A stretch of 26,790 nucleotides of DNA, taken from IMG/VR virus record IMGVR_UViG_3300014819_000057, positions 1-26,790 of that record. One strand, written 5' to 3'. A program made the translations under genes and the position numbers. Shown piece after piece: positions 45 to 25,682 of the stretch (positions are counted from its first letter, which is position 1; each line of letters starts with the position of its first letter). The notes below the pieces were generated by a model. That model saw nothing but the letters and a program-made list of their open reading frames with translations, was not told where the DNA came from and did no database searches. The DNA comes from a virus.

Positions 45-599
45 ATGACTAATTATCCTTTTCTATCAGAAATTCACTTTAAGAAAACTCATCCCGAGGC
101 TCTTCTTCCGCGTAGAAATAATTCTAATGATACAGGTTATGATCTATTTGCTGTAGAGGATGTTACTATTCCTTCCAAGGGAGATGGAGTTGTTCCAACT
201 GGAATCCAAGTAGCAAAGGTACCAGAAAATATTTGGTATTTAATTCTTCCGCGATCTGGTATGGGCTTTAAACATGGTATACAACCTCATTTAGGTGTAA
301 TTGATAATTGTGTACCAGCTGGTACTAAAATTCTTACATCAGAAGGAGAAATAAATGTAGAAGATCTTTTTGAAAGAGAAATTAAACCAAACATTATTTC
401 ATATCACATCGACTCTCATCAGCTTCAGGAAGATAATATAAAGGATATGTGGATTGTAGAAAACCGTGAACTTTTTAAAATACATACAGCGGATGGTAAT
501 ATACTAGAAGTTCCTCCAGAAAAAGAACTTTATACAAAAAAAGGATGGATAAAAGCTTTGAATTTGACAGAAGGAGATGAAATACTATCAGTTTCTTAA
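45..599 (+). CDS. dut: dUTPase N-terminal half fused to split-intein N-terminal domain
   Basis: dUTPase hydrolyses dUTP to dUMP and pyrophosphate, keeping uracil out of phage DNA and supplying dUMP for dTMP. Residues 1-88 are the N-terminal extein: motif I (NDTGYDLFA, 28-36), motif II (PRSGMGFKHGI, 69-79) and the first half of motif III (GVIDN, 84-88). Residue 89 is Cys1 of an intein: block A is CVPAGTKIL, and a block B-like region (about 140-170) ends in GWIKALNLTEGDEIL. A TAA then stops the frame after 96 intein residues. The rest of the intein and motifs III-V lie in a separate gene at 1557. The usual block B histidine is not present; Lys or Glu stands there. An active enzyme should need trans-splicing with the downstream product to give a 148-residue dUTPase, the normal family length. 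Identification as dUTPase plus intein is secure; splicing activity is inferred. Confidence 0.94.
   Translation: MTNYPFLSEIHFKKTHPEALLPRRNNSNDTGYDLFAVEDVTIPSKGDGVVPTGIQVAKVPENIWYLILPRSGMGFKHGIQPHLGVIDNCVPAGTKILTSEGEINVEDLFEREIKPNIISYHIDSHQLQEDNIKDMWIVENRELFKIHTADGNILEVPPEKELYTKKGWIKALNLTEGDEILSVS
309..596 (+). other. Split-intein N-terminal segment (IntN)
   Basis: This 96-residue segment starts at Cys1, directly after dUTPase Asn88, and ends at the stop codon. It carries block A (CVPAGTKIL) and a block B-like stretch around HTADGNILEVPPEKELYT. The length is close to that of other natural IntN fragments from fractured phage genes. In the no-gap comparison I could make with gp41-type IntN (from memory), the block B His aligns with Lys. 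Confidence 0.88.
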
Positions 600-634
600 T
601 ACCATTACCACCACGATATAGGGTAAGTATACGT

Positions 635-1591
635 ATGAAGCACGAACACACATGCCCGCAATGTTATATTACATTTTTTAACTCCAAAAAAATTTCTAAA
701 TACTGTTCCAAAAAATGCAAAATAGAAGCAATGACAATTGCTAAAATTTTAAAGTGTGAACTTTGTTTAAAACCATTCAAATCTACAGATTTACAACGGC
801 GTTTTTGTTCTGTTTTGTGTTCATCAACTGCACATAAAAATCGCAAAATTTTAGAATGTTTATATTGTTTTAAAAAATTTGAAGTTATGGGATATATGGC
901 TTTAAAAACAAAATATTGTTCTCGAGAATGCAGTTCAAAAGATATAAAATTAAAAGGTATTTTAAAAGTTCCAGAATCTGAAAAAAATGTTTTAAGCAAG
1001 AAATGTAATAACTGCCAAAAAGATTATAAAGTTTGGGGATACAGGAAAGAAATTTCAAAATATTGTTCAACTAAATGTCGTTATGAAACTGGTAGAATTT
1101 CTTGTATATGTTCAATATGTAAAACTTCTTACGAAGAAGAATATAATGTCTATTGTAACAGCTTTAATGTTAAACACAAATGTAAAAATTGTAGAGAATT
1201 AAATTCAACTTCCTCTTTTGAGTTGGATGTAAGGTTGTTCCTTAAACAAAATGGATTTAAATTTTCAACGAACCAGGCTGTAGCAAAACCAAACAAAAGG
1301 GGATATGTGTATCCAGACATTGTTTGTGGAAATATTATTATTGAATGCAATGGTGATTTTTTTCATTGCAATCCGGAAATTTATTCATCTTCTTTTATAA
1401 ATCCTCGCACATTAAAAACTGCACAAGAAATTTGGGACCATGACAAGTATAAAAGAGACCTTTATATGGAATGTGGTTATAATGTAATTGTTGTGTGGGA
1501 ATCAAAGTGGAAAAATCAGATTCACCAACTAGAAATTTTAAATATTCTTAAATCTTATGAAAATAACCCACTCCAAAGTGACAAAAATTGA
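635..1591 (+). CDS. Free-standing homing endonuclease, zinc-finger array plus EDxHD (Vsr-like) nuclease domain
   Basis: This 318-residue protein is encoded between the two halves of the split dUTPase gene. Residues 1-190 carry four C-x2-C...C-x3-C zinc fingers (Cys 7/10/24/28, 41/44/58/62, 75/78/95/99, 124/127/144/148) and a fifth, less regular Cys cluster (157-186). Residues 193-310 form a PD-(D/E)xK-type nuclease core with the order seen in Vsr-like EDxHD homing endonucleases: Glu196 (SFELDVR), Asp228 (YPDIV), Glu237 and His244 (IIIECNGDFFH), His269/Asp270 (WDHDKYKRD) and a final VVWESKW strand. The likely role is to cut dUTPase genes lacking the intein so that the split cassette is copied in; the fingers would supply DNA binding. 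It overlaps the IntC gene by 35 bases in another frame. No good Shine-Dalgarno precedes the ATG. The nuclease family call is by motif order, not by search. Confidence 0.87.
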   Translation: MKHEHTCPQCYITFFNSKKISKYCSKKCKIEAMTIAKILKCELCLKPFKSTDLQRRFCSVLCSSTAHKNRKILECLYCFKKFEVMGYMALKTKYCSRECSSKDIKLKGILKVPESEKNVLSKKCNNCQKDYKVWGYRKEISKYCSTKCRYETGRISCICSICKTSYEEEYNVYCNSFNVKHKCKNCRELNSTSSFELDVRLFLKQNGFKFSTNQAVAKPNKRGYVYPDIVCGNIIIECNGDFFHCNPEIYSSSFINPRTLKTAQEIWDHDKYKRDLYMECGYNVIVVWESKWKNQIHQLEILNILKSYENNPLQSDKN

Positions 1592-1673
1592 AAAATCAAC
1601 TTCTAAAGACATTTTTTATTTATCTGTAAAAAATAACGCCAATTATTTTGCTAATAAGCTTTGTGTACACAAT
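1557..1673 (+). other. Split-intein C-terminal segment (IntC)
   Basis: This 39-residue segment runs from its own ATG to the Asn of CVHN; the codon for Cys+1 of the extein starts at 1674. The His-Asn pair and Cys+1 are the residues needed for branch resolution and Asn cyclisation, and all are present. Confidence 0.9.
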
Positions 1674-1856
1674 TGCTATCGTGGCGATCTGGGAGTTAAA
1701 TTATATAATTTTTCGGACAAAGACTATAAGGTGTTAAAGGGGGATAGAGTAGCTCAAATAGCTTACTTTCCGTTGATATCTCTCGAACCACAATGGTCAG
1801 AAGAAGTGGAAGAAACCGACCGAGGAGCTAACGGCTTTGGTCAATCAGGAAAATAA
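1557..1856 (+). CDS. dut: Split-intein C-terminal domain fused to dUTPase C-terminal half
   Basis: This 99-residue gene supplies the partner of the protein at 45. Residues 1-39 are the intein C-terminal fragment: a block F-like stretch (IFYLSVKNNANYFAN) and block G ending in CVHN, with the conserved His-Asn pair before the splice point. The extein begins with Cys+1 and holds the second half of motif III (CYRGD), motif IV (KGDRVAQ) and the flexible C-terminal motif V (DRGANGFGQSGK) that closes over the active site. The start at 1557 gives a 39-residue IntC, the usual size for this class. It lies in the last 35 bases of the endonuclease gene, so translation may be coupled. The frame is the same as the N-terminal half, but stop codons separate them. 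The gp44 start follows two bases after its stop. Confidence 0.93.
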   Translation: MKITHSKVTKIEKSTSKDIFYLSVKNNANYFANKLCVHNCYRGDLGVKLYNFSDKDYKVLKGDRVAQIAYFPLISLEPQWSEEVEETDRGANGFGQSGK

Positions 1857-1858
1857 TT

Positions 1859-2791
1859 ATGAACAATCATTATAAAAATTTATGGTGTGAAAAATATAGA
1901 CCACAAAAATTTGAAGATCTTGTTTTAGAACAAGAAATTAAAAATCATTTATTGTCTATCAATGAAGATACCCCTCATCTTTTGTTTCACGGTAGTGCTG
2001 GTATCGGTAAAACCACCTCAGTTAAGATTCTAGTCAAACATGTATTAAAGTGTCAGTATCTTTATATTAATGCTAGTGATGAAAATGGTATTGACACCAT
2101 TCGTAACAAAGTTATTTCATTTGCTCAAACTCGATCTTTAGATGGAAAGAAAAAAGTAGTGATTCTAGACGAAGCTGACGGATTGACTGGAGATTCTTTG
2201 CGTATTCTACGGAATGTAATGGATGAATTTACAGATACTACTCGTTTTCTTCTTACTGCAAATTATATTAATAAAATCATTGAACCTATTCGTTCAAGAT
2301 GTATGTTGTTTAAGCTTCAACCTAACCTTAAAGGTATTGTACAGCGAAGCATAGATATCCTTAGAGGTGAAGGAATTTCTGTAGCAGATGATCAAAAGTC
2401 TGCATTGCTAAGTCTTATAGAAAAAAACAGTCCTGACATTCGTCGAATTATTAATGATTTACAAAAATATTCGGTCTCCGGTCAATTAATCATTAAAGAA
2501 GATAATCAAATATCAAATTTTGCGTCTTCTATATTTAAAGATTTAACAGCAAAGACTTCTACCTTAGAAATTCGTAAGAAGATTATTGAAGCAGAAAAAT
2601 CTTTTAATGGAGACTTTCAAAGTTTGATGAAAGAATTATTTGAATACATTTATCGCTCAGATTTTAAAGACAATGTTAAAAAATCTTTAATGTTAAATCT
2701 CGGAGAATATATGTATAGAGATGCAACAGTTTTAGACAAAGAAATTAATTTCTTTTGTTGTATAATTGCTCTGGAAAATGATTTAAAATAA
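1859..2791 (+). CDS. 44: Sliding-clamp loader ATPase subunit (T4 gp44 type)
   Basis: This AAA+ ATPase of the RFC small-subunit/T4 gp44 family loads the gp45 sliding clamp onto primer-template DNA with gp62. The 310 residues match the family length (T4 gp44 is 319). Visible motifs are the N-terminal EKYRPQKFEDL signature (11-21), Walker A GSAGIGKTT (45-53), Walker B VVILDEADG (100-108), sensor 1 FLLTANY (130-136), the SRC arginine-finger motif (146-148) and sensor 2 PDIRRIINDLQ around 184-194. A plausible Shine-Dalgarno (AGGA) lies about eight bases before the ATG, one of few in the window. It follows dut-C by two bases. In T4 this gene sits beside 45 and 62; here its right neighbour is an opposed gene of unknown function. 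Confidence 0.95.
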   Translation: MNNHYKNLWCEKYRPQKFEDLVLEQEIKNHLLSINEDTPHLLFHGSAGIGKTTSVKILVKHVLKCQYLYINASDENGIDTIRNKVISFAQTRSLDGKKKVVILDEADGLTGDSLRILRNVMDEFTDTTRFLLTANYINKIIEPIRSRCMLFKLQPNLKGIVQRSIDILRGEGISVADDQKSALLSLIEKNSPDIRRIINDLQKYSVSGQLIIKEDNQISNFASSIFKDLTAKTSTLEIRKKIIEAEKSFNGDFQSLMKELFEYIYRSDFKDNVKKSLMLNLGEYMYRDATVLDKEINFFCCIIALENDLK

Positions 2792-18871: not shown

Positions 18872-21800
18872 ATGGCCATTACATGCGAAGACATTCGGAT
18901 CACAGACCTATGTAGAGCAGATCACTTAGTTAACAGTGATTTACTATTAGCTGCTACTAATCTCTCCACTCAAGCAAGCACACAAGCTGTCTCCGCTTGT
19001 ATTATATTAAATTATATAGCAGACAGATCCGCATACAGACTAGATAATCAGTGTAATATTGTACCATCTAATCCCTTGGTTGGCCAAAGTTATAACAACA
19101 CCATCACTCTTTCTAAATATTCTAATATAGCCAGTGGTTTGAGTAATCATATTAATGCTGCTGGAGACAGTGGTGGATCCACTATCGGTTCTGGTAATTG
19201 TAATTACGTAGGGGATGATTTATCTGTTGTTGGGGGTGGCGAACACAATTTTGTAGATGCTTGTGCATCGGCTATTGTTGCCGGTGCTTATAATTGTTCT
19301 ACTGGCATATACGACTTCATTGGAGCTGGTGCATTTAATAAAGTTACCTTACCCAAATCTTCTATTGTTGGTGGAGAAGGCAACCGAGTATGTGCTATTA
19401 AAAGTTTTATTGGTGGCGGAGAAGGCAATTTAATAAAATCTGATTATTCTTCCATTGTGGGTGGGTATAGTGGAATAGTAGACAGTCCATACTCCACTAT
19501 AGCTGGTGGAAGTAATAATATAGTTTGTGGAGATCACAATTTTATAGGATCTGGTACTTGTAATCAAATAGATGGAGCACATTCTTCTGTGAATGGAGGC
19601 TCTTATAACATAGTTAATTCCTCTTATGCTGCAATTGTTGGAGGTAACTTAAATAGAACCAATGCAAATCATAACTTTATAGGTGCTGGAGTAAATAACA
19701 CCACTAACCAAAATTGTGCTTCTATAGTTGGTGGTGAAGATAATTTTGTAAATGGTGAAATCAGTTCTATCTTAGGAGGATATAGCAATGTAGTTAGTGC
19801 TAGTGGATCCTCTATTGCTGGTGGATGTTGCAATAACGTTTCTGGCGAGTTTACTTCTGTGGGAGCTGGTGGATGTAATGTCGCTAGTGGAGATTTTGCT
19901 TCTATAGTGGGAGGTAAAACTAATTCTTTATCTGGAAATTATGCTTCAATCCTTGGAGGAGAATTAAATAAAGTAGTTTGTGACCATTCCATCATAGCCG
20001 GAGGACTTAATAATTGTGTTGCAGATTGTTTATCGTTTATAGGAGGAGGCCAAAGTAATTTTTCTAGCAATACTCACACTGTTATAGATGGAGGATTTTG
20101 CAATACAATTAGTGGAGAGAGATCTTCTATTGTGGGAGGTTATTGCAACAACATTTCTGGTCTCAATGATTTTATTGCTGGTGGAGGACGCAATATTGTA
20201 AAATCTAATTTTTCTTCCATCGTCGGTGGATTTAGTAGTTCTGTATTAAGTGGAGATTGTTCTTTAATTGTTGGTGGAGAATGCAATGTAATTACAGCCG
20301 GTGGTTCTTCTATTGTCGGCGGTATAAACAACCAAATTAAGGGCAACAACTCTGTTATTGGTGGAGGGTGTTGTAATTCAGTACAAACCTACCATTCTTC
20401 TATAGTTGGTGGTTATAGTGGTTCTATATTAGGAGGAGACCATTCTACTGTAGTAGGTGGGTGTAAAAACGTTGTTAATGGGGGCAAGTCTGTAATCACC
20501 GGTGGAGCTTCAAACAATGTTATAGGAAATGCTAGTTTTATAGGTTCTGGAGAAATTAATCAAGTTAATGGTAATTGTTCTTCTGTAATAGGTGGAAGCA
20601 ACAACACCATAACTGCTTATAGATCATCTATTGTAGGAGGAGACAGTAATACACTTAATTCTAATAATTCTTATATAGCCGGTGGATTAAATAACTCAAG
20701 TTATAATTTTTCAAATACTTTTATATTAGGTAGCAACATTAATGCTTCGTGTGCAAATTATACATACGTCAACAATTTATCTGCCATTCAAGACGTTACT
20801 AGCTTTAATGTATGCGGAAGAACTTTGATATCTTCTCCTAGTGCAGTTATAACCAATATAACCGCTAATAGTGCGGTGAGAATTGCCTCGTTTGTATCTG
20901 CCCCTAGTGCTTATACCACAGATACGGTTGTAGAAAATGTTTTATACGGCAATAATGTTTGCGCTTCTACTGTATTTAAGTCTCCTAGTGCAGTTATAAC
21001 CAATATAACAGCCAATAGTGCAGTTAGAATTGGCTCATTTGTATCAGCTCCTAGTGCTTATACCACAGATACGGTTGTAGAAAATGTTTTATACGGCAAT
21101 AATGTTTGTGCCTCTACTGTATTTAAGTCTCCGAGTGCAGTTATAACCAATATAACCGCCAATAGTGCTGTAAGGATCTCTTCTTTTGTATCCGCTCCTA
21201 GCAGTTATTTTACATACACAGTTGTAGAAAATGTTTTATACGGCAATAATGTTTGTGCCTCTACTGTATTCAAATCCCCGAGTGCTTCAATTGTCTGTGC
21301 AACTATTGATGATACATTAAAAGTTTGTACTCTCCTTAGAGCAGCTAGTGCTTCCATAGGCAATACAACTGTGGATAATACATTATATGGCAACACAGTA
21401 TGTGCTTCTACTGTATTTAAATCTCCAAGTGCTTCTATAACTTGTGCAGTTATAGACGACACTCTTAAGATTTGTACTCTCCTTAGAGCAGCTAGTGCTT
21501 CTATAGGAAATGCCTCGATTGACTCTGTATTACACGGCAATACAGTTTGTGCTTCTACTGTATTTAAGTCCTCAAGTGCTTCAATTATATGTGCAACTAT
21601 TGATGATACATTAAAAGTTTGTACCCTTTTAAGAGCAACTAGTGCTTCCATCGGCAATTTAAGTGTAGATAATACTATATACGGAAATACCATTTTAGCT
21701 TCCACTCAATTTTCTTCTCCCAGCGCAACTCTTACTAATGTAACTATTACAAGTGGACAATTTTCAAATGTATATGTTAACAACAATTTAATAGGCAATA

Positions 21801-22921
21801 CTATAAATGCTTCTACAGCATTTAAATCACCGAGCGCCTCTATAGATTATATAACTGTTAATTATAATCTTACTAGCAATAACATAACAAGTCGTTCTAA
21901 TTTAATAAGTCCGACCATATATTCTAACTATGTTATTAATACCAATTCTATAAATTCTCCAGTAATTAATGCTAGTACTCAAATATTAAGTGCTGGCACG
22001 GATATCGGAGCCATATTTCTTAAAGCCGGTAGCGTTGATCAAGGATTTTCTACAACTTTATACCCTTACAAAGCACCTAATTTTATATCTTATACAGTTT
22101 CTAATAACTCAACAACAACCTTTGTTCTTCCAGGAAATCTTTTTGTAGGAACACTGTCTAATGATTATATAGTCTTCATAGACGGCATACATCAAAAACC
22201 AGCCATTAATTACACTATAGATGGTGTATATGGTTTAGTAACTACATCCACTGTCCCCATAAGTTCCAAAGTCAATATCTTCTCTTATGATTATAGTGGT
22301 AACTATTCCCTAAGGCCTAATATACAAACATTTGCCAGCAACGGAATTACCTCTTTGTTTAATCTTAGTATATTATCTTCTACTTATAATCTAGAAAATA
22401 CTCGTTATTTTGTATTTGTAAATGGAATTATACAACAACCAGGAGTTGATTTTATTATTAATACCACTGGTGGTAGATCCATTCAATTTACCTCACCACC
22501 TCCACAAATAGGAGGATTGAATGGAACTATAGTAGTTTATGAATATTTGTACGGATCTCTTGGAATAACTCAACCAGATTTCTTATCTTTCACCGGCAAT
22601 GGTTCAACTTCAGCTTTCAATGTTAGTACTTCTTATATCAGTCCATCTGCAACCAACTATCTCATATCTCTAGGTGGTGTTGTTCAACGACCAGAAATAG
22701 ATTATGTAGTAAATTCTGTTAACAATGGAACTATTCAATTTACAACTCCGCCTCCATTAAATGCCAATATGGGGGTATTTTATTTTAAATTTGGTAATTA
22801 TAACAGCAATCTTAACATTGTAAATATAATCTCTAAAACCACTCCAATGACTGCTACAGGTGATTTTATATCTTTAGTAATAAATGGAAATCAAAAATAT
22901 ATTCGTCTCTGGGAAGGTTAA
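18872..22921 (+). CDS. Repeat-built tail fibre protein, 1349 residues
   Basis: The first 60 residues (IRITDLCRADHLVNSDLLLA...) look like the attachment domain of T4-like marine fibres ('i..L.....l...D.~~~....'). Residues about 103-621 are a solenoid of 35 near-perfect 15-residue repeats with core S-[SF]-I-V-G-G-x-x-N-x-V, like YadA-type head repeats. Residues 655-948 are six 49-residue repeats (SPSA...YGN.VCASTVFK). Residues about 1070-1308 hold three ~80-residue fibre repeats of the 'F.gNGsTs.F.......~~VFvnGi.QqPg.Dy.i.....I.FtsPP' type. The C-terminal GDFISLVINGNQKYIRLWEG matches a short beta end-cap common in such fibres. No intramolecular chaperone or peptidase domain is seen. It should form a long trimeric shaft. 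There is no Shine-Dalgarno before the ATG. Confidence 0.85.
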   Translation: MAITCEDIRITDLCRADHLVNSDLLLAATNLSTQASTQAVSACIILNYIADRSAYRLDNQCNIVPSNPLVGQSYNNTITLSKYSNIASGLSNHINAAGDSGGSTIGSGNCNYVGDDLSVVGGGEHNFVDACASAIVAGAYNCSTGIYDFIGAGAFNKVTLPKSSIVGGEGNRVCAIKSFIGGGEGNLIKSDYSSIVGGYSGIVDSPYSTIAGGSNNIVCGDHNFIGSGTCNQIDGAHSSVNGGSYNIVNSSYAAIVGGNLNRTNANHNFIGAGVNNTTNQNCASIVGGEDNFVNGEISSILGGYSNVVSASGSSIAGGCCNNVSGEFTSVGAGGCNVASGDFASIVGGKTNSLSGNYASILGGELNKVVCDHSIIAGGLNNCVADCLSFIGGGQSNFSSNTHTVIDGGFCNTISGERSSIVGGYCNNISGLNDFIAGGGRNIVKSNFSSIVGGFSSSVLSGDCSLIVGGECNVITAGGSSIVGGINNQIKGNNSVIGGGCCNSVQTYHSSIVGGYSGSILGGDHSTVVGGCKNVVNGGKSVITGGASNNVIGNASFIGSGEINQVNGNCSSVIGGSNNTITAYRSSIVGGDSNTLNSNNSYIAGGLNNSSYNFSNTFILGSNINASCANYTYVNNLSAIQDVTSFNVCGRTLISSPSAVITNITANSAVRIASFVSAPSAYTTDTVVENVLYGNNVCASTVFKSPSAVITNITANSAVRIGSFVSAPSAYTTDTVVENVLYGNNVCASTVFKSPSAVITNITANSAVRISSFVSAPSSYFTYTVVENVLYGNNVCASTVFKSPSASIVCATIDDTLKVCTLLRAASASIGNTTVDNTLYGNTVCASTVFKSPSASITCAVIDDTLKICTLLRAASASIGNASIDSVLHGNTVCASTVFKSSSASIICATIDDTLKVCTLLRATSASIGNLSVDNTIYGNTILASTQFSSPSATLTNVTITSGQFSNVYVNNNLIGNTINASTAFKSPSASIDYITVNYNLTSNNITSRSNLISPTIYSNYVINTNSINSPVINASTQILSAGTDIGAIFLKAGSVDQGFSTTLYPYKAPNFISYTVSNNSTTTFVLPGNLFVGTLSNDYIVFIDGIHQKPAINYTIDGVYGLVTTSTVPISSKVNIFSYDYSGNYSLRPNIQTFASNGITSLFNLSILSSTYNLENTRYFVFVNGIIQQPGVDFIINTTGGRSIQFTSPPPQIGGLNGTIVVYEYLYGSLGITQPDFLSFTGNGSTSAFNVSTSYISPSATNYLISLGGVVQRPEIDYVVNSVNNGTIQFTTPPPLNANMGVFYFKFGNYNSNLNIVNIISKTTPMTATGDFISLVINGNQKYIRLWEG
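19178..20759 (+). repeat. Array of about 35 fifteen-residue (45-base) coding repeats
   Basis: Repeat cores begin at residues 103, 118, 133 and then every 15 residues to 448 without exception; three later steps are 16 residues (448-464, 509-525, 600-616), the others remain 15. Each core is S-x-I-[VIAG]-G-G, with a conserved Asn eight residues after the first Ser. The repeat is a protein-level solenoid and diverged in DNA, with much synonymous change. Confidence 0.9.
20834..21715 (+). repeat. Six tandem 147-base (49-residue) repeats in two subfamilies
   Basis: Units begin at residues 655, 704, 753, 802, 851 and 900, each exactly 49 apart. The first three share AVITNITANSAVRI...VENVLYGNN; the last three share ASI.CA.IDDTLK.CTLLRA..ASIGN. 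All six have VCASTVFK or a variant at the end. Neighbouring copies are nearly identical in DNA; for example GTTGTAGAAAATGTTTTATA occurs three times. The array ends in a degenerate unit. Confidence 0.9.
22079..22795 (+). repeat. Three diverged fibre repeats of about 80 residues
   Basis: Each copy has an aromatic/Ser-Thr strand (NNSTTTFVL, NGITSLFNL, NGSTSAFNV), a V-F-[IV]-[DN]-G-I-x-Q-x-P turn (IDGIHQKP, VNGIIQQP, LGGVVQRP) and a final strand. The last two end in TSPPP or TTPPP. This module is widespread in marine T4-like fibres. Confidence 0.75.
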
Positions 22922-22934
22922 CAAAATTTAAATT

Positions 22935-25682
22935 ATGAGTTTGCAAATATTATCTCAACCACATCTAGTCCAGAACTCTTTTTCTGTTAATGGAGTATTA
23001 AGTGCAACTACAGCTGTATTTAATTCTATCAGTGCTAATTACATAAACGTTGGCAATGTTTCTGCACCAGCTTTAAGTGGTAAATTTTATGGAGACGGAA
23101 GTCAATTAACTGGATTGAGTGGAGTGGGAGGAACATACACTCCTCCAGCTAATGCTACATTTACTTCTTCAGTTTCTGCACCAGCTTTAAGTGGCGTACA
23201 TTATGGAGATGGAAGTAAGTTAACTGGTATAGCTGGAACATACACCCCACCAGCAAATGCTACTTTTACTTCTAGTGTCTCCGCTCCAGCTTTAAGTGGT
23301 ACATTTTATGGAGATGGAAGTAATCTGATAAACTTAGATGCCGGAGATTTTACACAAGGAACTCTAAACAACGCTAGACTATCAGCCATAGTTTCTGTTC
23401 AGCTCGCTGTAATAGCACCTTCTTTTACAGGTTCTCATTTCGGAGACTTAAGTGGAACTCACTATGGAGATGGAAGTAATTTGAGTGGTGTTATCAAGAC
23501 TCAGTATACTCCACCTGCAAATGCCACTTTTACTTCTAGTGTTTCAGCACCTGCTTTAAGTGGAACCCATTACGGAGATGGAAGCAATTTAAGTGGAGTT
23601 ATTAAAACTCAATACTCACCACCTGCCAATGCTACTTTTACTTCTAGTGTTTCTGCACCAGCTTTAAGTGGTACTTTCTATGGTGATGGAAGTAAATTGG
23701 TTAATATACTATCAACAGATTCTACTAAGTTACCGTTAGCAGGGGGTACTTTGATTGGAACCCTAAATGGAACAATAGGCAGTTTTAGTACTTCGTTATC
23801 ATCACCAGCTTTAAGTGGTACTTTCTATGGTGATGGAAGCAAGTTAACTGGTATAGCAGGAACATATACCCCACCAGCCAATGCTACTTTTACTTCTAGT
23901 GTTTCAGCACCCGCTTTAAGTGGAACTCACTACGGAGATGGAAGTAAATTATCTTTCACCAACATTCAAGCCCGAGACGCCTTCAATCCTATTGGAGGTA
24001 TTACTTTCAGTGATGGTTTTGTCTCCTTAAGTGCTAGTAGCACTAGTCAAATAATAACTTTTGACAATGCATTTATCCGGCCCAAAGTAACTATATACGG
24101 AACAGTTTCTGCTCTGTCTTTAAGTGGTATGCATTATGGTGACGGTAATAATTTAAGCTTCTCTAACATTCAAGCTCGGGACATTTTGACAGGACTTCCG
24201 AGCGGTGGAATTACTTTTGGTTCTAATAGTATTACCTTGAGTACAACTAATACCCAAGTAATGGGTATAGATACCACTTCTTTAACTAAGGTAACTATAT
24301 ACGGATCAGTTTCTGCACCAGCTTTAAGTGGTACATTTTATGGTGATGGAAGCAATCTAAGTGGAGTAATTAAAACCCAATATACTCCACCAGCCAATGC
24401 TACATTTACTTCTAGTGTTAGTGCTCCAGCTTTGTCTGGTACTCATTATGGAGACGGAAGTAATCTAAGTGGAGTTATTAAGACCCAATATACTCCACCA
24501 GCTAATGCTACTTTTACATCCTCAGTTAGTGCTCCGTCTTTAAGTGGTTCCGTTTTATATAGTTCTGGTGATAGTTATATTAACTCCATTTCTATAGGTA
24601 GAGGAGCCGGAAATGTAAATACTAATACAGTATTGGGAGCCGGAGCTTTAGCTTCAAATACTATTGGGGGATCAAACGTAGCAATTGGATATTCTGCATT
24701 AGCTAGTAGTAGTACGGTTGGAGGAAACGTAGCAATTGGAAGATTTGCTCTGACTAGTAATGGTTTAGGTAGTAGTAATACTGCAATAGGGACCAATGCT
24801 CTTTCTGCTACTGGTGACAGTAATTTGAGTGTTGCAGTAGGTAGTGCTTCTCTTAAAAACTTAACAACTGGTGATAGCAACATTGCTATAGGATACAACG
24901 CTGGAAACGCTATAACTAGCGGAACAAATAACACTATTATAGGCAGTATTGCAGGAACAGCTAGTTTAAGCAATACCGTAATAATTGGAGCAGGATCCAC
25001 AGAGCGGATGCGGATTGATTCCAATGGAAACACTACATTTACTACATCAGTTTCTGCTCCGTCTTTAAGTGGCACTCATTATGGAAAAATTAAAGCAAGA
25101 AGCTCAGATGGAGAAAACGTTACTTTATTAGGAAGATCAGCGGACAATGTTAGTACTATTACAGCTTATAGAAATGACGAAACTACTGGAACTGGTAGTG
25201 TATTTTTTAGTCCGACATTAGTTTCAATAAGCACAGTTGCTGGACAAGCAATGAATATAAATTCGTCTAATAACACTACTTTTACGGGTTCTGTTTCTGC
25301 TCCGTCTTTAAGTGGTTCTCATTATGGTGATGGAAGTAATTTATTAAATTTAAATTCTTCCAATATAACTACAGCTGTAAATGGAAGCAAGTCTGGTACT
25401 TACACATTAGCTCTTGCTGATGCTGGAGGTATTTTATCATTCAATTCATCCGTTTCCAGTGTTTGTCAAGTTCCAGCAAATTCTGTGGTTCCTTTTGCAA
25501 TTGGTACTCAAATGGTAGTGATACAAGAAGGAACTGGAACTGTAACTTTTCAAATAGTTCCTAGTTCTGGAGTAGATCTTAAATACTATAATAATAAATA
25601 TATAACATCTGGGCAATATAGTTTAGCTACCTTAGTAAAGGTTGGAACTGATTCCTGGAGACTAGGAGGAACTTTATCATAA
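22935..25682 (+). CDS. Tail fibre protein with YGDGS repeats and YadA-like head
   Basis: This 915-residue fibre has about 14 copies of SAPALSG or SAPSLSG, most followed by [TVK][HF]YGDGS[NK]L, spaced 35-60 residues apart, many joined by YTPPANATFTSSV. The GDGS-L repeat is the fibre shaft unit of many T4-like phages. Residues about 552-692 change to YadA-like head repeats (SNVAIGYSAL, GNVAIGRFAL, SNTAIGTNAL, SNIAIGYNAG, NTIIGSIAG, NTVIIGAGSTERMRID). The final ~100 residues (GTYTLALADAGGILSFN..., SGQYSLATLVKVGTDSWRLGG) form a compact C-terminal end of a kind seen after such shafts, without an S74-type chaperone motif. It precedes the glycine-rich gene by one base, so that product may bind its tip. 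No Shine-Dalgarno at normal spacing. Confidence 0.87.
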   Translation: MSLQILSQPHLVQNSFSVNGVLSATTAVFNSISANYINVGNVSAPALSGKFYGDGSQLTGLSGVGGTYTPPANATFTSSVSAPALSGVHYGDGSKLTGIAGTYTPPANATFTSSVSAPALSGTFYGDGSNLINLDAGDFTQGTLNNARLSAIVSVQLAVIAPSFTGSHFGDLSGTHYGDGSNLSGVIKTQYTPPANATFTSSVSAPALSGTHYGDGSNLSGVIKTQYSPPANATFTSSVSAPALSGTFYGDGSKLVNILSTDSTKLPLAGGTLIGTLNGTIGSFSTSLSSPALSGTFYGDGSKLTGIAGTYTPPANATFTSSVSAPALSGTHYGDGSKLSFTNIQARDAFNPIGGITFSDGFVSLSASSTSQIITFDNAFIRPKVTIYGTVSALSLSGMHYGDGNNLSFSNIQARDILTGLPSGGITFGSNSITLSTTNTQVMGIDTTSLTKVTIYGSVSAPALSGTFYGDGSNLSGVIKTQYTPPANATFTSSVSAPALSGTHYGDGSNLSGVIKTQYTPPANATFTSSVSAPSLSGSVLYSSGDSYINSISIGRGAGNVNTNTVLGAGALASNTIGGSNVAIGYSALASSSTVGGNVAIGRFALTSNGLGSSNTAIGTNALSATGDSNLSVAVGSASLKNLTTGDSNIAIGYNAGNAITSGTNNTIIGSIAGTASLSNTVIIGAGSTERMRIDSNGNTTFTTSVSAPSLSGTHYGKIKARSSDGENVTLLGRSADNVSTITAYRNDETTGTGSVFFSPTLVSISTVAGQAMNINSSNNTTFTGSVSAPSLSGSHYGDGSNLLNLNSSNITTAVNGSKSGTYTLALADAGGILSFNSSVSSVCQVPANSVVPFAIGTQMVVIQEGTGTVTFQIVPSSGVDLKYYNNKYITSGQYSLATLVKVGTDSWRLGGTLS
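23050..25345 (+). repeat. Fourteen SAPALSG/YGDGS fibre repeats
   Basis: Repeats of 'SAPALSG-x-[FH]YGDGS' recur along the gene, the first near 23057 and the last near 25340. Long stretches such as GCTTTAAGTGG appear many times. Codons for identical residues vary between copies (tctgcacca, tccgctcca, tcagcacct). The same module begins the next fibre gene (about 26680-26735). Confidence 0.88.

Follow-up and report, generated by a model that had tools for sequence, protein, structure and literature searches.

Organization of the interrupted dUTPase locus

The window analysed here, i.e. the whole 26,790-nt stretch of IMG/VR virus record IMGVR_UViG_3300014819_000057, carries near one end a dUTPase gene (dut) divided between two open reading frames (ORFs), with a third ORF for a predicted endonuclease between them (Table 1). 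The original prediction had placed three ORFs at these positions, and all three were recovered; as it also proposed, each outer ORF has its own start and stop and matches both dUTPase and inteins, in agreement with a fractured gene holding a split intein. The upstream gene (positions 45–599, 184 residues) is dUTPase through residue 88 (Pfam dUTPase, E-value 1e-10, residues 21–92) and intein N-terminal region (IntN) from Cys89 (NCBIfam intein_Nterm, E-value 8e-8, residues 89–164, above cut-off). The downstream gene (positions 1557–1856, 99 residues) is intein C-terminal region (IntC) to Asn39 (Pfam Intein_splicing, E-value 7e-5, residues 3–39, below cut-off) and dUTPase thereafter (E-value 4e-11, residues 38–98), and its start codon lies within the endonuclease gene, with an overlap of 35 nt.

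When joined, the two halves carry all five motifs of trimeric dUTPases (NDTGYDL, PRSG, GVIDN/CYRG, GDRVAQ and RGANGFG), and the predicted ligated product has the anticipated length, 88 + 60 = 148 residues. In E. coli dUTPase, Asp90 is the catalytic residue and Tyr93 stacks on uracil. As the C-extein Cys occupies position 92 on alignment to the E. coli enzyme (1rnj/1dud), the break lies one residue past the Asp90 equivalent, with the Tyr93 equivalent following immediately after the +1 Cys. The partition into two genes was correctly foreseen, but the break does not separate motifs I–II from motifs III–V; it lies inside motif III (GVIDN / C-YRG).

Table 1. Positions of the dut halves, the insert and the adjacent gene in the window (L003 is a relative with an uninterrupted dut)
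Feature	Position	Strand	Evidence
dUTPase N-extein, residues 1–88	45..308	+	Pfam/NCBIfam/PHROG dUTPase; 100% identical in protein to the intact dut of L003
N-extein motifs	45..308	+	motifs I (NDTGYDL) and II (PRSG) and the first half of III (GVIDN)
IntN, 96 residues + stop, Cys1	309..599	+	NCBIfam intein_Nterm; profile alignment to PDB NrdJ-1, RecA and DnaB inteins
Free-standing homing-type endonuclease (predicted), 318 aa	635..1591	+	AF2 model and PDB fold search; same-position relatives in five other fractured duts
Five Cys4 (treble-clef-like) modules, CxxC...CxxxC, endonuclease residues 7–186, presumed DNA-binding	653..1192	+	motif count, secondary structure of model
Vsr/EDxHD nuclease domain (predicted), ~residues 193–297 (PDI ... 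IECNGDFFH ... D270 ... WE)	1211..1525	+	conserved columns, fold search
IntC, 39 residues, ending Cys-Val-His-Asn	1557..1673	+	Pfam Intein_splicing, intein_Cterm, alignment
dUTPase C-extein, 60 residues, with Cys+1, the rest of motif III (YRG) and motifs IV and V	1674..1856	+	dUTPase matches; 95% identity to L003
Whole insert, 1365 bp, absent from empty allele of L003	309..1673	+	flank alignment
Putative left co-conversion tract: 5/9 left-flank differences from empty allele, all synonymous	291..308	.	binomial P 7e-5
Putative right co-conversion tract: 4 differences from empty allele, common to occupied L031, including Gly-to-Cys at +1	1674..1685	.	
Clamp-loader large subunit (T4 gp44-like), directly downstream	1859..2791	+	phrog_168, E-value 8e-71

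For the middle gene, which the original prediction had called a free-standing endonuclease, sequence matches were weak (Vsr TIGR00632, E-value 0.035; phrog_22677, E-value 1e-13), and a PDB sequence search with it gave no match. However, its AF2 model, built from six relatives (mean pLDDT 79, pTM 0.42), matched in Foldseek the catalytic domain of I-Bth0305I (3r3p; TM 0.76 of target, probability 1.00) and Vsr (1vsr; probability 1.00), at E-values of only ~0.005–0.01. According to this model, the middle gene has a Vsr-type catalytic fold and probably belongs to the EDxHD homing family. E237, G240, H244, D270, W288 and E289, as candidate catalytic residues, are invariant in six relatives. Upstream of the catalytic domain, the endonucleases of the window (five modules) and of L057, L075, L076, L090 and L064 (other sequences are given by such handles) have between four and six Cys4 zinc modules, as if the length of the target-binding part were built from repeats. 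RNA folding before the endonuclease start, examined for a hairpin, showed no excess in the window (z -0.04) or L057, and an excess was found only in L076 (z -2.2).

By tblastn against isolated phages, the nuclease domain was found inside or beside broken polB genes: in Aeromonas phage Aes123, where a split polB with N- and C-intein is annotated, and in Tenacibaculum PTm1 and Klebsiella KP13-7; Campylobacter CP21 and F379 have it next to a split polB. The KP13-7 case (L072:1-4447) is an unannotated fractured family-B polymerase, arranged as PolB+IntN, Vsr-like endonuclease and IntC+PolB, all parts of which are annotated as hypothetical proteins. A further endonuclease relative lies within a tape-measure-like gene (L064:3001-4155) and is possibly intron-borne. 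The 348-kb contig of L090 (G006) has four Vsr-like endonuclease matches, at 826, 43196, 49932 and 343044; three of them are not in dut and may point to further broken genes.

Empty and occupied alleles, and recurrence in other phages

One relative, L003 (IMG/VR contig 3300027733_000034, 131 kb), has 98% DNA identity to the window over 4.3 kb on the right side of the insert and 97% over 310 bp on its left side, and its dut is uninterrupted, reading GVIDN-G-YRG; no endonuclease homologue was found in the 131-kb contig. A second relative, L031 (contig 3300009151_005351), starts within the final 7 bases of IntC and thus represents a second occupied strain. The start of this 25-kb contig inside IntC (L031:1-7) suggests that the assembly broke at this point in a sample containing both occupied and empty alleles. 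The clamp-loader gene is the downstream neighbour in L003 as well (by DNA collinearity), and also in L057 (by ORF).

Differences between these alleles gather at the edges of the insert. On the left flank, five of the nine differences between the window and L003 lie in the final 18 bp (P 7e-5). On the right flank, the first 12 bp hold four differences from L003 in both occupied strains, the next seven differences distinguish the window from both L031 and L003, and the clustering for L031 versus L003 has a binomial P of 6e-4. Judged from the aligned sequences, this is the pattern of homing with short co-conversion, and the proposed mobility through a homing nuclease is supported by an empty-site relative with such a footprint. 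Empty relatives have Gly, Pro, Ser, Glu or Gln as their native +1 residue; Cys comes with the insert.

Fractured dut genes were found in at least eight phage lineages (the window and at least seven more), always at motif III and in very different dUTPases, the count being a lower bound set by the search patterns used. L057/L058, retrieved with the endonuclease query, share this layout, again followed by the clamp-loader gene, and an IntC-junction profile retrieved L075, L076, L077-79, L090/91, L107 and L113/115/117-121. The insertion follows Asp-Asn in the window and L057, and in the other six lineages it comes right after the catalytic Asp, one codon upstream. In 8/8 the C-half starts inside the end of the nuclease gene, by 17–38 nt as judged from assumed starts (those of L075 and L115 are approximate). 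Because independent contigs share this three-part layout and the allele of a 98%-identical phage is empty, we exclude chance as its origin. No relatives were found in the GTDB genomes scanned, and no isolated phage with a fractured dut was recognised among the matches listed; Vibrio phage GR11A was rejected as a candidate, its intein being a cis intein in a ResIII-type helicase. A pattern for the C-side junction gave no match, because it required an acidic residue after YRG (Asn in L057) and placed the +1 Cys next to Tyr (a spacer residue separates the two in L075 and others).

The middle gene is not constant in these lineages. Five other fractured duts have Vsr-type relatives at this position, whereas L107 (3079-3972) and L115 (3073-3960) have an unrelated PD-(D/E)XK-like nuclease with weak DUF1064 and TnsA-like matches, relatives of which were found in Bacillus phage endonucleases and one uncultured phage. 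This is a nuclease swap within the same split intein family. In L077 (3740-3800; also in L078 and L079) a stretch of ten A holds a frameshift in the endonuclease gene, with both dut halves open; the cause may be decay of the nuclease, slippage or a sequencing indel common to the three.

Inteins and exteins of these genes have different relationships. Identity is higher in the intein than in the extein for window–L090 (48 versus 26%) and L077–L090 (55 versus 30%), and the extein of L077 groups with L107/L115 (42 and 39%) while its intein groups with L090; this disagreement points to horizontal spread. A dut tree of 32 rows grouped the fractured genes as one clade in 0% of bootstraps and paired the window with intact L003 at 100/99, the L076, L077 and L090 exteins being long branches of unsure exact placement. 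A branch at 94/92 separates the dut inteins from Nrd inteins. An insert that no longer homes, with the endonuclease as a passenger of a vertically inherited element, would be compatible with the frameshift in L077-79 and with endonuclease activity being a prediction, but we regard it as unlikely, since near-identical phages have empty and occupied alleles with edge-clustered differences, distant duts are more alike in intein than in extein, and fractured duts are not monophyletic.

Active site of the split intein and integrity of the gene

The terminal residues of class 1 inteins, Cys1, His38, Asn39 and Cys+1, are present in 8/8 dut inteins, and the interior of the active site departs from that class. 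In gapless alignment to solved inteins, block B of the window reads P-P-E-K (Pro-Pro-x-Lys72), versus T-P-D-H in NrdJ-1 and T-A-N-H in DnaB, so that the class 1 block-B His with Thr at B:7 is missing, as is Asp (or Cys/Trp) at F:4, where the window has Tyr21. Position B:10 is Lys in six of the eight dut inteins, Thr in one, Ser in one and His in none; it is His in 18/18 distinct control inteins. The B:7/B:10 pair is Pro/Lys in the six, and Thr/Thr and Thr/Ser in the other two. At F:4, five dut inteins have His (five of the six with Lys at B:10), and the two without Lys have Asp, the residue of 18/20 control inteins. Class 3 does not fit either, as that class has Cys at F:4 and no N-terminal nucleophile, whereas here Cys1 is present and F:4 is Tyr, His or Asp. 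Seven of the eight IntN halves have no histidine at all, the -1 residue of dut inteins is Asp or Asn, and IntN and IntC have opposite net charge in 8/8. The controls are mostly Nrd inteins from the same scans (the cis inteins L067 and L068 and the Nrd inteins served as controls only) and sequences within each set are related, so this contrast is descriptive and not a probability. An AF2 model of the N half was of low confidence (pLDDT 66) and was not used.

His B:10 is the most conserved intein residue, and of two exceptions known by 2014 one was a pseudogene (PMC4031507); the other, Tko CDC21-1, uses a Lys outside the motifs (PMC4031507). The -1 residue can partly stand in for His B:10 (PMC6333167). 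From the residue pattern we infer that Lys B:10, together with the His that IntC supplies at F:4, takes over the N-S acyl shift. Tentatively, and with slightly less than even confidence, we suggest that dut split inteins are a distinct catalytic variant, in which Lys B:10 aids this shift, the F:4 His (Tyr in the window) acts in trans, the N-half is inert until the C-half docks, and the element has spread by homing through unrelated phage dUTPases beside the catalytic Asp. Inertness of the N-half is suggested because it has no block-B histidine and the active-site His would come from IntC.

The missing block-B His and block-F Asp could also be signs of decay, i.e. halves that no longer splice in a gene dead or dying, with the degraded pseudogene of the 2014 review as a precedent (PMC4031507). 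We find this improbable, as Lys is kept in six lineages at 41–57% intein identity, the terminal splicing residues are kept in every lineage, the dut half-ORFs are open in 8/8, and the gene appears to be the only copy. The check proposed earlier for a second intact dut found none besides the fractured gene in contigs of 87, 152, 177, 309 and 348 kb, and the 131-kb L003 contig has a single, intact dut. Moreover, comparison of the N-extein with L003 gives 8 synonymous and 0 non-synonymous codon changes, and the sole protein-level difference between the C-exteins of L031 and L003 is the +1 Cys. By these sequence measures, the fractured dut is not a relic.

dUTPase is a homotrimer whose active sites are formed by neighbouring chains, so complementation between pieces is conceivable, and the halves might fold as a nicked enzyme with the intein parts as passive tails. 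A phage NrdA split by a homing endonuclease keeps its function (Friedrich 2007, cited in PMC3322345). Nevertheless, passive tails would have no need of terminal nucleophiles and an Asn that are invariant in eight lineages, and the break falls between the catalytic Asp and Tyr inside one motif; we consider such splitting without splicing very improbable.

Proposed mechanism and relation to known systems

The locus is very probably a fractured dUTPase of a T4-like phage, with halves joined by a split intein and an insert spread by a homing endonuclease. In this model, translation would yield two half-enzymes, each inactive alone; acidic IntN and basic IntC would associate, and Cys1/Cys+1 protein trans-splicing, with which the sequence is consistent, would ligate the halves (~148 residues) and release the intein pair, restoring the active site, which the break divides between the catalytic Asp (equivalent to E. 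coli Asp90) and the Tyr that stacks on uracil. The zinc-module/EDxHD endonuclease would recognise and cut uninterrupted motif-III dut DNA of a phage infecting the same cell, and repair templated by the occupied copy would transfer the 1365-bp insert with a few flanking bases; cutting of the intein-less allele and copying into it is supported indirectly. Because the site is in a conserved active-site motif, the insert would be hard to lose without exact deletion. Some observations weigh against this model: the right-flank footprint is small (12 bp), the window contig (26.8 kb) is a fragment of its own genome, and a second dense patch of differences at 1715-1742 (SDKDY versus SNTDH) separates the window from both L003 and L031, perhaps through recombination with another dut.

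Elsewhere in the window, the large proteins encoded at positions 18872-25682 contain numerous nearly identical repeats (e.g. TPPANATFTSSVSAPALSGTHYGDGS); they are probably tail fibres that have undergone internal duplication.

The fractured genes of Dassa et al. 2009 reportedly have split inteins and Vsr-related free-standing endonucleases. The dut locus shares with them a phage DNA-metabolism enzyme gene, a split intein and an EDxHD/Vsr-type nuclease gene in between, and differs in its dUTPase host, the absence of block-B His, and the DUF1064/TnsA-like PD-(D/E)XK nuclease of L107 and L115. No dUTPase intein was found in the literature searched, which did not extend to the host genes of that study; dUTPase thus stands as a new host as far as searched, although not as a lone case, given the further lineages.

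NrdJ-1 has Asp at F:4, an Nrd host and Ser at +1. This split intein (PDB 8ubs) is a clear profile match in PDB and differs by its canonical block B. I-Bth0305I, intron-encoded in a RecA gene, shares the catalytic-domain fold (3r3p), while the DNA-binding part of the dut endonucleases is a zinc-module array of 4–6 units. The PolB1 split intein of Aeromonas phages (Aes123; JN377899; PMC11923092) has the same order of IntN, VSR endonuclease and IntC in an isolated T4-like phage, with a short overlap of nuclease and C-half genes as here, and differs in its DNA polymerase host and its Ser1-type, cysteine-less intein. Tko CDC21-1 also splices without block-B His, but it is a cis intein and compensates via Lys58 outside the motifs rather than Lys B:10 (PMC4031507). 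The dCTP deaminase intein of cyanophage CL131 resides in a host of the same dUTPase/dCTP-deaminase fold and was shown to self-excise (PMC6293099), but is continuous (cis), lies at KSTYAR/C and has canonical TPDH in block B.

A nucleotide-sanitation enzyme thereby joins the known fractured-gene hosts, in an arrangement that recurs across phage lineages and with an empty/occupied allele pair that appears to catch homing in the act; the family may supply new Cys1 split inteins with an N-half inert alone, useful for protein ligation. Since the layout is known and the nearest enzyme case, CL131, is cis, at another site and with canonical His, we class the locus as a fractured gene with a host new as far as searched and a non-canonical intein, which is not a canonical class 1 intein.
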